The notes beneath the pieces were generated by a model. It searched no databases. It worked only from the letters and a program-made list of their open reading frames with translations, and had not been told where the DNA came from. From NCBI GenBank assembly GCA_001771975.1, contig MERE01000101.1, positions 1 through 40,466 of the forward strand: a DNA stretch of 40,466 bases, written 5' to 3'. The stretch is from Betaproteobacteria bacterium RIFCSPLOWO2_02_FULL_68_150. GTDB taxonomy: Bacteria > Pseudomonadota > Gammaproteobacteria > Burkholderiales > SG8-39. The position numbers and the translations under genes were made by a program. Below are positions 16,938-23,200 of the stretch, in pieces; positions within the stretch are counted from its first letter, which is position 1; each line of letters begins with the position of its first letter.

Positions 16938-16966
16938 TTGACGGAGTGTCGTAATACCTGTATAAA
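16938..16966 (+). promoter_or_regulatory. Sigma70-like promoter for the cold-shock gene (TTGACG-N17-TATAAA)
   Basis: Direct reading: -35 TTGACG 16938-16943, 17-nt spacer, -10 TATAAA 16961-16966; predicts a roughly 130-nt leader before the csp ATG at 17107. Confidence 0.75.
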
Positions 16967-16972
16967 CGACCG

Positions 16973-17106
16973 GGCAGGATTCTCAAGCAGTGAAAAGGCC
17001 GGTCAGGCGGTAGCGTTCGCGCTGTGCTCATCAGGTAGATTTTCTCTTCCTTGATTTTCCGCAGGGCAGATCGCCCTTTTCTTTCATTCAGATCGAGGAC
17101 ACAGAC
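16973..17106 (+). promoter_or_regulatory. Long 5' leader of cold-shock gene (candidate thermo-responsive UTR)
   Basis: About 134 nt between predicted TSS and ATG, with hairpin AGGGC-AGATC-GCCCT (17063-17077) followed by a T-rich run; long structured leaders are characteristic of cspA-type mRNAs. Confidence 0.5.
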
Positions 17107-17310
17107 ATGAGTACCGGTACCGTGAAATGGTTCAACGACGCCAAGGGTTTTGGATTCATCACGCCTGACGACGGCGGCAAAGACCTCTTCGTTCACTTTT
17201 CTGCCATCCAGGCCGGCGGCTTCAAGTCGCTGAAGGAAAACGACAAGGTGCAGTTCGACGTGGGCCAGGGCGCGAAGGGTCCGAACGCCACCAACGTCAA
17301 GCCGCTGTAA
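17107..17310 (+). CDS. Cold-shock protein (CspA family)
   Basis: 67 aa [70 protein letters not shown]1 KGFGFI and RNP2 LFVHF. Confidence 0.97.
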
Positions 17311-17326
17311 TGAGGCAGGCAGGCTG

Positions 17327-17355
17327 AAAAAGGCCCGGACTTCCGGGCTTTTTTT
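17327..17355 (+). terminator. Intrinsic terminator after csp, immediately upstream of module copy 1
   Basis: AAAAAGGCCCGGACTTCCGGGCTTTTTTT: GC-rich stem, short loop, T-run. Confidence 0.9.
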
Positions 17356-17375
17356 GTTTCATCGGGGGACTCACC

Positions 17376-17612
17376 ATGCAAATCCTGGCACGCGGCCGAA
17401 TCGCGCACTGGAGCAGGGAAAAGATCGACACCTTGAGCACGCTCGAGCTGCGGCAGCTGCTCGCGAACGCGCAGCGGCTGCAGGAGACGGAAATCGCGGC
17501 GCTCTGCAACGAGTTGCTCGGCGCGCGCCCGAGAGGGCACGGCGTGGTGCGCCGGCAGAAGCCGAAAGGCAAAGCGGGCGCACCGGTTGCGCGCGGCAGG
17601 GCGACGGAATGA
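17376..17612 (+). CDS. Uncharacterised small protein, module copy 1 gene A
   Basis: 78 aa MQILARGRIAHWSREKIDTLSTLELRQLLANAQRLQETEIAALCNELLGARPRGHGVVRRQKPKGKAGAPVARGRATE; SD-like GGGGGA upstream; clearly paralogous to the N-terminus of 22147..22764. Confidence 0.85.
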   Translation: MQILARGRIAHWSREKIDTLSTLELRQLLANAQRLQETEIAALCNELLGARPRGHGVVRRQKPKGKAGAPVARGRATE

Positions 17613-17941
17613 GGAACCCTGTAGCCGTGCGCAGGCGTTACACGATCGGCAGGTACGAAATCGTCGCGCAGCCGATTCCGCACGCTGCGCAGATGTTCCG
17701 CTACACCGTGTTTGTCGACGGCAGGCGCATCGGGACGATGGCCAGCGTGCCCTCGGAGGCCGATTGCGTATCGATGGAGAAGCCGCCGATCGTTCCGCCG
17801 CTGGTGCCCTATCAGGTGGTCTATCGCCCGGGGCGCCCCAAGAAGGGTACCCCGCCGCGCACGACCGGCGATGCGGCTCCGCCGCCGCACGAAGACTTGC
17901 CGCACGGCATGTCGTTTCCCCAGGCCACGGACGAGCGCTAG
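17609..17941 (+). CDS. Uncharacterised small protein, module copy 1 gene B
   Basis: 110 aa from ATG at 17609 (ATGA overlap with gene A): MRNPVAVRRRYTIGRYEIVAQPIPHAAQMFRYTVFVDGRRIGTMASVPSEADCVSMEKPPIVPPLVPYQVVYRPGRPKKG...; paralogous to 22781..23125. Confidence 0.85.
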   Translation: MRNPVAVRRRYTIGRYEIVAQPIPHAAQMFRYTVFVDGRRIGTMASVPSEADCVSMEKPPIVPPLVPYQVVYRPGRPKKGTPPRTTGDAAPPPHEDLPHGMSFPQATDER

Positions 17942-20088: not shown

Positions 20089-20189
20089 GGCGGCGGCTCC
20101 TCGCGGAATCGAATGCGCGCGAGCTTAGCACCGCGCGTGCGCCGCCGCGCCCCGGTTTATCATTCGCGCGTCATGACTGCCCGCTCACG

Positions 20190-21746
20190 ATGAATTCGCC
20201 CGCCGGCGCAGACACGCTTTCCGATCTCATCCGCAGCCACGCCGCGCGCGACCCCGCGCACGCTGCGTTGCGGCAGGACGGCCGCGAGCTGAGTTACGGC
20301 GCGCTCGACGCGCTGATGGACCGCGTGGCTGCCGCGCTTCAGCGCGATGGGCTCGCGCCGCAGGATGCGATCGCGATCTGCGCCGGCACATCGCTCGAGT
20401 ACGCCGCGGTCTTCCTGGGAGCCCTGCGCGCCGGCATCGCCGTGGCGCCGCTGGCGCCGTCGTGCACCCCGAGCGAAATCGCTGACATGGCAACCGATGC
20501 CGGTGCGAGGCTCCTGTTCCTGGACGAGAGCGTCGCACAGGCGCTCGCGCCGGTGGCCACGCGACTCAAGGCGCGGTGCCTCGCGCTGGACGGCTCTGCC
20601 GCGGGCGCACCACTGCGGCACTGGCTGGCGGCCGATGGCACCGCCCCGGTGGCGATCGCCGTGCAGCCGCACTGGGCGTTCAACATCATCTACTCCTCCG
20701 GCACCACGGGGGTTCCCAAAGGCATCGTGCAATCGCATGCCATGCGCGGGGGCCACGTGCAGCGCGCCGCGATCTACGGCTACGGCCGCGACACCGTGAC
20801 GCTGCTCGCCACGCCGCTGTACTCCAACACCACGTTGGTGTGCTTCTTTCCTGCGCTCAGCGCCGGCGGCACCGCAGTGCTGATGGGCAAGTTCGACGCG
20901 GCCGCCTACCTGGCGCTCGCCGAGCGGCACCACGCGACCCACACCATGCTCGTGCCGGTTCAATACCAGCGCATCATGGCGCTGCCCGAGTTCGGCCGCT
21001 ACGACCTGCAGAGCTTTCGCTACAAGTTCTGCACCAGCGCGCCATTCCGCGCCGCGTTGAAGGCCGACGTCCTGGCGCGCTGGCCGGGCGGGCTGGTCGA
21101 GTTCTACGGCCTGACCGAAGGCGGCGGCACCTGCATCCTGGTTGCGCACGAACACCCCGGCAAGCTGCACACGGTAGGCAAACCCGCGCAGGGGCACGAC
21201 GTGCGCCTGATCGACGAGCAGGGCCGCGAGGTCCCACCGGGTGCATTGGGCGAAGTCGTCGGGCGCTCGCCGATCATGATGAACGGCTACCACAACCAGC
21301 CGGAAAGAACGCGCGAAGCCGAGTGGTACTCGCCCGCGGGTGAGCGTTTTATCCGCAGCGGTGACCTCGGCCGCTTTGACGCCGACGGCTTTCTCGTGCT
21401 GACCGATCGCAGGAAGGACATGATCATCACGGGCGGCTACAACGTCTACCCGAGCGACCTCGAGACGGTCATGCGCGGGCACGCCGAAGTGGCCGATGTC
21501 GCGGTGGTCGGCGTGCCTTCGGACCAATGGGGCGAAACACCGGTTGCGTTTGTCGTGCTCAAACCGGGTGCCCGCGCAAGCGCGCAGGCGCTGCTCGAAT
21601 GGACCAATTCCCGTGTCAACAGGATCCAGCGGCTGGCCGACCTGCAACTTGCCGCCAACCTGCCGCGCAGCGCAATCGGCAAGGTGCTGAAGCGGGAGCT
21701 GCGCGACGCCTACGAGAGTGTGCCGGCGTCCCGGCCGCCCGTGTAA
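20190..21746 (+). CDS. Class I adenylate-forming enzyme / acyl-CoA synthetase
   Basis: 518 aa from ATG 20190; IIYSSGTTGVPKGIVQSHAM, VEFYGLTEGGGTCIL, YHNQPERTREAEWY...SGDLGRFDADGFLVLTDRRKDMIITGGYNVYPSDLE, SAIGKVLKRELRD. Confidence 0.93.
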   Translation: MNSPAGADTLSDLIRSHAARDPAHAALRQDGRELSYGALDALMDRVAAALQRDGLAPQDAIAICAGTSLEYAAVFLGALRAGIAVAPLAPSCTPSEIADMATDAGARLLFLDESVAQALAPVATRLKARCLALDGSAAGAPLRHWLAADGTAPVAIAVQPHWAFNIIYSSGTTGVPKGIVQSHAMRGGHVQRAAIYGYGRDTVTLLATPLYSNTTLVCFFPALSAGGTAVLMGKFDAAAYLALAERHHATHTMLVPVQYQRIMALPEFGRYDLQSFRYKFCTSAPFRAALKADVLARWPGGLVEFYGLTEGGGTCILVAHEHPGKLHTVGKPAQGHDVRLIDEQGREVPPGALGEVVGRSPIMMNGYHNQPERTREAEWYSPAGERFIRSGDLGRFDADGFLVLTDRRKDMIITGGYNVYPSDLETVMRGHAEVADVAVVGVPSDQWGETPVAFVVLKPGARASAQALLEWTNSRVNRIQRLADLQLAANLPRSAIGKVLKRELRDAYESVPASRPPV

Positions 21747-21764
21747 ACTAAGCGTGAGTATTCA

Positions 21765-21793
21765 TGGACTAACCGCAGCCACGGCGGTATACT
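21765..21793 (+). promoter_or_regulatory. Candidate sigma70 promoter upstream of module copy 2 (TGGACT-N17-TATACT)
   Basis: -35 TGGACT 21765-21770, 17-nt spacer, -10 TATACT 21788-21793; placed between the acyl-CoA synthetase stop and the terminator at 21861. Confidence 0.6.
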
Positions 21794-21860
21794 ACGCGGG
21801 CAAACTGCTCGCACAGAGAACCGACATCCGGCCGGCCGCATGAGCGCGGCGGCGTGATCG

Positions 21861-21888
21861 AAAAAAGCCCGGAGGACCGGGCTTTTTT
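21861..21888 (+). terminator. Intrinsic terminator immediately upstream of module copy 2
   Basis: AAAAAAGCCCGG-AGGA-CCGGGCTTTTTT: perfect 12-bp inverted repeat including A/T tracts. Confidence 0.9.
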
Positions 21889-21910
21889 GTTTTTTTACCG
21901 GGGACAGCCC

Positions 21911-22144
21911 ATGGACAAGCGCAAGGTGTGGCGGGAACAGGAACAGCTGCTGGTGCAGCGATGGAACGCGGCGGCCACGCGCTACCAGGAACTGCAGGCG
22001 CGGATTTCGCGCCAGGCGGCCGGCGGCGATCCTGCGAACGAAACCCTGATGCGGGAGGCGGAACAGGCGCGCGCCGATATCGACGCCGTGAGGCGTCAGG
22101 TTGCGCGCCTCAAGGTCGAGTTCGTTTCCGGAAAGCGGTATTAG
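21911..22144 (+). CDS. Uncharacterised small coiled-coil-like protein, module copy 2
   Basis: 77 aa from ATG 21911: MDKRKVWREQEQLLVQRWNAAATRYQELQARISRQAAGGDPANETLMREAEQARADIDAVRRQVARLKVEFVSGKRY; charged, helix-rich; GGGGAC SD-like element upstream. Confidence 0.75.
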   Translation: MDKRKVWREQEQLLVQRWNAAATRYQELQARISRQAAGGDPANETLMREAEQARADIDAVRRQVARLKVEFVSGKRY

Positions 22145-22146
22145 CG

Positions 22147-22764
22147 ATGCGGATCCTGGGACGCGGCCGGGTTGCGATGTGGACCCGGGAAAAGATCAGT
22201 TCCCTGAGCACGCCCGAGCTGCGCCAACTGCACCAGAACGCCGAGCGGCTGCACGAAACCGAGGTCGCCACGCTGTGCGCCGAGGTGCTCGGCGCGCGGC
22301 CCCGCAGCCGGGCGGCGGTGCGCCGGCCCAGGCGCAAAGGCAGCGCGGGACGGCTCGTCGCGCGCAGCAAGGCGTTCGAATTGCGCGGTGTCAGCCTGCA
22401 AAACCGCTTCTGGAGCCGCGGCGGCGTGCGCCCGAGCGACGGGATGGTGGTGGTCGCGCTGTGGGCTGAGGACGTGCAGCGCGCCAACGCTGTCAGCAGC
22501 TGCCTGCTCTGGGCACCGAACGTAGCGGGCTCACGCCCCTGGTCGGACAAGCTCGGCGGCAAGGAGCGGCTGGCGCATTGCCGGCTCGCGGCCGAGCGCG
22601 GTGCTGCCGAAGGACTGCTCGTGTATGGCACTCGCCTCGAGGGATCGCTGCCCGAGGACCGGGCGCTCAGCGTGGACGGGGTGGATCCGGAAAACGTGCT
22701 CGAGCTGCGGGTAGACAGGCGTGGCGACGAGTACTGGGCCACGTGGGGCAACAGCAACATTTGA
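22147..22764 (+). CDS. Uncharacterised two-part protein, module copy 2 gene A (gene A-like N-terminus fused to an extra C-terminal domain)
   Basis: 205 aa from ATG 22147: MRILGRGRVAMWTREKISSLSTPELRQLHQNAERLHETEVATLCAEVLGARPRS... then KAFELRGVSLQNRFWSRGGVRPSDGMVVVALWAEDVQ...EGLLVYGTRLEGSLPEDRALSVDGVDPENVLELRVDRRGDEYWATWGNSNI. Confidence 0.85.
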   Translation: MRILGRGRVAMWTREKISSLSTPELRQLHQNAERLHETEVATLCAEVLGARPRSRAAVRRPRRKGSAGRLVARSKAFELRGVSLQNRFWSRGGVRPSDGMVVVALWAEDVQRANAVSSCLLWAPNVAGSRPWSDKLGGKERLAHCRLAAERGAAEGLLVYGTRLEGSLPEDRALSVDGVDPENVLELRVDRRGDEYWATWGNSNI

Positions 22765-22780
22765 TCGCCGAAGGAAACCT

Positions 22781-23125
22781 ATGAGCATCCCGGTCACCGA
22801 GCACAAGCGATTCTGGGTCGGCAAGTACGAGATCGTCGCCCGGCCGATACCGCATTCCACGCACATGCTGCGCTACACGGTGTTTCTCGGCGGCACGCGC
22901 ATCGGCGCGCTCGCCAGCATGCCGTCCGAATCGGATTGCCTGTTCCTCGAGAAACCGCCGGCCGTGCCGCCGCTCAAGCTCTATTCGACCGGTTATCGTC
23001 CGGGGCGCCCGAAAAACGGTTCACGGCCTCCGGCAGCGGCTGCCGAGAAGGCACCGCCGCCCCCGAGCGAAGACCTGCCGGACGGGCTTCCGCTGCCCGA
23101 CCCGAGGAACCCCGAAGAGCGCTAG
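22781..23125 (+). CDS. Uncharacterised small protein, module copy 2 gene B
   Basis: 114 aa from ATG 22781: MSIPVTEHKRFWVGKYEIVARPIPHSTHMLRYTVFLGGTRIGALASMPSESDCLFLEKPPAVPPLKLYSTGYRPGRPKNG...; paralogue of 17609..17941. Confidence 0.85.
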   Translation: MSIPVTEHKRFWVGKYEIVARPIPHSTHMLRYTVFLGGTRIGALASMPSESDCLFLEKPPAVPPLKLYSTGYRPGRPKNGSRPPAAAAEKAPPPPSEDLPDGLPLPDPRNPEER

Positions 23126-23200
23126 CAGGCCGCGTTGAGCCGCAAACAGCGGCTTGGCCGCGCAGCGCGGATGAAACACGACGGCGAGCGCCGCCGCAAA

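Follow-up and report, generated by a model that had tools for sequence, protein, structure and literature searches.

Why would a gene module have a promoter, a short leader and an intrinsic terminator in front of its first gene, an arrangement in which transcripts would have to pass the terminator to express the module? This question is raised by a locus in the window (the whole 40,466-nucleotide stretch analysed, part of a fragmented genome assembly of 2.43 Mb). On the forward strand, downstream of an acyl-CoA ligase gene (20160-21746), lie a sigma70-like promoter, TGGACT-N17-TATACT (21765-21793; -35 box 21765-21770, 17-nt spacer, -10 box 21788-21793), a transcribed leader (21800-21860, its start placed from the -10 box only), a terminator with a perfect 12-bp stem, a 4-nt loop and a U tail (21861-21888; AAAAAAGCCCGG-AGGA-CCGGGCTTTTTT, then GTTTTTTTAC), and a Shine-Dalgarno-like GGGGAC (21901-21906). 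These are followed by the genes for X77, a 77-aa protein (21911-22144; MDKRKxWREQEQ...VARLKVEFxSGKRY), A2, a 205-aa protein (22147-22764), neither with an assigned function, and B2, a 114-aa protein with an AT-hook-like RPGRPKxG motif (22781-23125). The promoter, the 12-bp terminator, the Shine-Dalgarno sequence, the ATG at 21911 and the letters of a small ORF, MSAAA* (21840-21857; ATGAGCGCGGCGGCGTGA), were all found where the earlier note on this DNA had placed them. We refer to this locus as module copy 2. An intact relative of the arrangement, module copy 1 (16965-17941), lies in the same window and comprises csp (17107-17310, forward strand; PF00313, E = 5e-32), a terminator on the same strand between csp and A1 (17327-17354) with the same core hairpin, A1 and B1.

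The terminator of copy 2 is far beyond chance. Shuffling the intergenic stretch 2000 times and the whole window 20 times never gave a perfect stem of at least 10 bp followed by a T tail, and the strand from 21797 to 21913 folds with a z-score of -3.2. Its GC-rich stem and following U tract are those of an intrinsic terminator, for which termination in vivo is a prediction. The promoter match, taken alone, is near chance and is weak evidence: when the intergenic stretch was shuffled 2000 times, its score was equalled 110 times, and two promoter-grade sites occur in 12 kb (1.0 ± 1.1 in shuffles). The little space between the hairpin and the X77 start codon holds no promoter-like site, so X77-A2-B2 would have to be reached by read-through, either from the promoter at about 21800 or from ligase transcripts. 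The earlier note had named a second promoter inside 21889-21911 as one of the observations that would overturn its reading of the locus as a promoter-leader-terminator-ORF unit; the search returned none, and that reading, with the module reached only through the terminator, is supported by the sequence.

Conservation lends the promoter and leader more weight. Two congeners, G002 and G003, deposited as Betaproteobacteria MAGs, carry ligase, leader, terminator, X77, A2 and B2 at the same locus, and their alignment with the window confirms the expectation that promoter, leader and hairpin recur in front of homologous modules. In this three-way alignment the -10 box is identical at 6/6 positions and the -35 box at 4/6, while variation is seen in the promoter spacer (41% identical) and in the 10 nt that follow the -10 box (20%). 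The leader core (21804-21851) is identical at 45 of 48 positions in all three species, compared with 58% at the adjacent third codon positions of the ligase gene (binomial P about 3e-8), and we conclude that the leader is constrained and under selection. Recent transfer of the whole unit is not the cause of this conservation, because X77, A2 and B2 are only 71-80% identical among the three species. Nor is the leader protein-coding, since it carries a one-base deletion in G002 and neither relative has the MSAAA* stop. The comparison covers three species of one genus, whose genomes are all fragmented (completeness 73-88%); a search of 199 relatives found the leader in the window, G002 and G003 only, and a GTDB-wide scan in G002 and G003 only.

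The small ORF fared differently from the rest of the unit. The same ATG is present in G002 and G003 without that stop, the frame staying open for at least 200 and at least 121 codons, respectively; control by an upstream ORF was therefore rejected, and MSAAA*, which is peculiar to the window, is probably not functional. In the G002 locus (L094) the frame from the leader ATG runs through the terminator and, in another frame, through X77 into A2 (at least 200 codons); this is probably a coincidence of high G+C content, as G003 and the window lack such a frame.

The origin of the hairpin became apparent from its distribution. Within the 2.43-Mb genome, the core GCCCGG-N(3-8)-CCGGGCTTTTT occurs at two loci only, the csp/A1 gap of copy 1 and copy 2, and with AAA and TTT flanks at copy 2 alone. 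Across the bacterial family, a csp stop codon lies 26-45 nt before the hairpin in 16 of 30 sampled loci (the copy-2 loci of G002 and G003 are among the remaining 14), and copy 2 has the same AAAAAGCCCGG-N4-CCGGGCTTTTT pattern that is seen at this distance after csp stops. Over all the loci collected, it stands between csp and A, X77 or B, with the next gene starting 9-39 nt after it, a gap too short for a further promoter; in one genus (g8) the distance to the X77 start is 94-98 nt. Compensatory changes affect four stem pairs among 25 sequences, with a covariation score reached by 0 of 500 shuffles, and in the three-way alignment the 3' arm of the stem is 12/12 identical and the loop 1/4. The hairpin of copy 2 is thus, on comparative grounds, the csp terminator of the family, since it stands behind csp stops family-wide and before X77, A or B, with compensatory changes in its stem, and it recurs in front of the module. 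An intact csp directly upstream is absent from copy 2 in the window, in G002 and in G003. The earlier guess that a Csp could matter here gains support from this identity. The derivation of the terminator from csp, and probably that of the leader, could not be seen in the earlier sequence-only reading, nor could the fact that a congener has an empty site where the unit lies.

Other placements of these elements occur in genus g7. At two of its loci (L021 and L022) the csp-type hairpin lies inside the module, in the gap between B or A and X77, 9-16 nt before X77 and with no csp directly upstream. At two others (L020 and L062) X77-A-B lacks the terminator and follows a TATAAT-like box at a distance of about 100 nt, so that the module is ungated there; since these modules carry a promoter-like site and no terminator, the terminator gate is not obligatory.

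The leader itself is probably what remains of a csp 3' end. In a single frame, positions 21808-21843 (CTC GCA CAG to GCC GCA TGA, forward strand) read LAQRTDIRPAA*, to be compared with GAQATNVRPA*, the csp C-termini of sister genus g2. When the leader was scored with a profile built from the nucleotides of 49 csp C-termini, the best match fell at exactly these positions, 44 nt before the hairpin, and the csp-to-hairpin offset in most csp genes is 37-48 nt; 39 of 20000 shuffles matched the score at the position that this offset predicts (p about 0.002), and 203 of 20000 matched it at any position. At 3.9 bits it is far under the scores of true csp genes (at least 14.8), so that a relic here would be a decayed one. 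In alignments of the leader, 2 of 1000 shuffles equalled the result for one sister-genus csp 3' end (locus L102) and 2 of 1000 equalled the mean over 41 csp 3' ends; the maximum over all csp genes was not significant (102/1000). The likeness is short, and it is significant only at the expected position or against the sister genus. In that genus, csp-hairpin-X77-A loci have a spacing and a Shine-Dalgarno sequence (GGGGACC) matching copy 2. Derivation from a csp 5'UTR was rejected, as csp 5' regions show no similarity to the leader (318/400 shuffles). Taken together, we regard it as probable that the leader represents the last ~10 codons and the stop of a csp gene.

Copies 1 and 2 did not arise by recent duplication, because A1 and B1 are only about 62% and 56% identical to A2 and B2, respectively. 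The Csp of copy 1 shares 96% identity with its genus g7 counterpart, more than with Csp of its own genus, and copy 1 may have an outside origin. An Rfam match to the cspA thermoregulator (RF01766; 16965-17357) covers its csp gene; this element is absent from the copy-2 leader, which resembles no csp 5' region. All three module proteins (X77, A and B) are conserved; for none of them did Pfam give a match above cut-off, or NCBIfam any match. The B proteins (22781-23125 and 17609-17941) share an invariant AT-hook-like RPGRP motif and a disordered proline-rich tail, making DNA binding possible. Searches of solved structures with X77, A2 and B2 returned nothing convincing; the A2 model (pLDDT 79) had no confident structural match, its best being SRA domains at E = 0.19, which is not evidence, and a scan of the genome's contigs with A2 gave no match.

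The stretch from promoter to B2 behaves as a unit. In a further congener (G004, locus L116), only 4 nt separate the ligase orthologue from a convergent small gene (MTNLNPLKYCYHGQHSKPRASFRTLPGG...), and the unit is absent; in the window, 21747-23200 occupies the gap between the same two genes. The A2 and X77 genes of G004 are on another contig, after an intact csp. This distribution may reflect either a gain in three species or a loss in G004.

Given these patterns, we favour, with moderate confidence, the reading that copy 2 is a csp-terminator-X77 operon that has lost its csp gene save for the 3' relic, and that it now yields a ~90-nt RNA, with X77-A2-B2 expressed by read-through. The ancestral csp-terminator-X77-A-B operon would have lost all of the csp coding region but the final ~10 codons. 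From a sigma70 promoter of its own, with a start predicted at ~21800, the locus would then produce a ~90-nt RNA made of relic and csp terminator, at which most transcripts would end, and X77-A2-B2 would be made from read-through transcripts only, as in the csp-led copies with the same hairpin between csp and module, so that the terminator would set a low module output. Because no antiterminator fold is shared, read-through would be either intrinsic leak or the work of a factor acting in trans. The likeliest modulator would be a Csp supplied in trans, for example from copy 1, since intrinsic termination in E. coli is reduced by Csp proteins (PMC9765468). B. subtilis behaved in the opposite way to antitermination: several terminators let more transcripts through once CspB/CspD had been lost (PMC8307031). 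Dependence of the read-through on Csp is a tentative part of this reading, which we doubt more than we believe, and the termination efficiency and the expression by read-through are likewise predicted. What the genomes display is only that csp, its terminator and the module occur together; Csp antitermination and a trans-acting sRNA role for the ~90-nt RNA are plausible. A bolder and rather unlikely version would make the csp tail and terminator, once the coding region was gone, a selected RNA element that responds to Csp levels in trans, in which Csp melts the hairpin and opens X77-A2-B2, perhaps with an sRNA function as well; across the family the hairpin would then be a portable Csp-responsive gate before at least three different accessory genes.

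A plain leaky terminator inherited from csp, with a fixed small pass-through, no regulation and a functionless ~90-nt RNA, is unlikely in our judgement, yet by analogy it is a serious rival, as most E. coli terminators show at least 5% read-through (PMC6131387) and an antiterminator fold was not found; a leader conserved at 45/48 positions is, however, far above what a mere spacer would need. That same leader, non-coding, near-invariant and closed by a terminator with its U tail, is what a free-standing sRNA gene would look like, with a trans-acting ~90-nt RNA and only incidental read-through into X77, and the 5'UTR RNA Rli51 of Listeria, with cis and trans roles, provides a precedent (PMC11394854). 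We consider this quite improbable, given that the search turned up no further promoter for X77-A2-B2, that the leader is confined to three species of one genus and that it has no Rfam match above threshold.

The layout and the conserved leader could also suggest a classical attenuator or riboswitch, where a ligand- or ribosome-driven alternative fold of the leader blocks the terminator, and the earlier note had listed conditional termination among its expectations. With the terminator stem forbidden, the folds of the three species had no competing structure in common and the loss of the stem cost about 17-18 kcal/mol in each; the Rfam scan of the leader, at gathering and relaxed thresholds, gave nothing above the gathering score, and its sub-threshold matches share merely a GC stem and a U tail, so neither a riboswitch nor a known sRNA family was retained. 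Together with the unconserved small ORF, this leaves conditional termination by a competing fold or riboswitch not borne out, and very improbable. A CsrA-type GGA in the AGGA loop was dropped, the loop being TGTT in G002 and G003. To the idea that the hairpin just serves the acyl-CoA ligase gene as its terminator we give hardly any credence: it lies on the same strand, 114 nt after the ligase stop with no stronger terminator-like site in between, and it may also stop ligase transcripts, but it is not the ligase's by ancestry, because the G004 orthologue does without it, with a convergent neighbour 4 nt away, and elsewhere the hairpin belongs to csp loci.

The favoured reading, a csp-derived leader and terminator passed by read-through, has counterparts among known systems. 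The Csp-sensitive terminators of E. coli (metY-rpsO with CspA/CspC/CspE; SgrS, CyaR, GcvB and others with CspD; PMC9765468) likewise combine an intrinsic terminator before genes, a csp link and expression by read-through; at copy 2 the link is genomic only and the terminator is the csp gene's own. As in ChiZ and IspZ of E. coli (PMC7815308) and Rli51 of Listeria (PMC11394854), termination before the ORF would free a short RNA and read-through would feed the gene, whereas the copy-2 leader probably stems from the 3' end of a protein gene, and the antiterminator fold predicted for Rli51 has no counterpart found here. The csp-terminator-X77/A/B operons within the same bacterial family (L015, L016, L027, L006 and copy 1) share the hairpin, the spacing to the module gene and the module proteins; unlike them, copy 2 has no csp coding region and has a promoter and a ~60-nt leader instead. 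If the favoured reading is true, the family would offer a natural comparative test of the debated control of intrinsic termination by Csp, as many genomes have the same hairpin separating csp from one of three different genes, and one genus has it there without csp in cis. Copy 2 would then also illustrate how a protein gene's 3' end turns into a constrained regulatory RNA.
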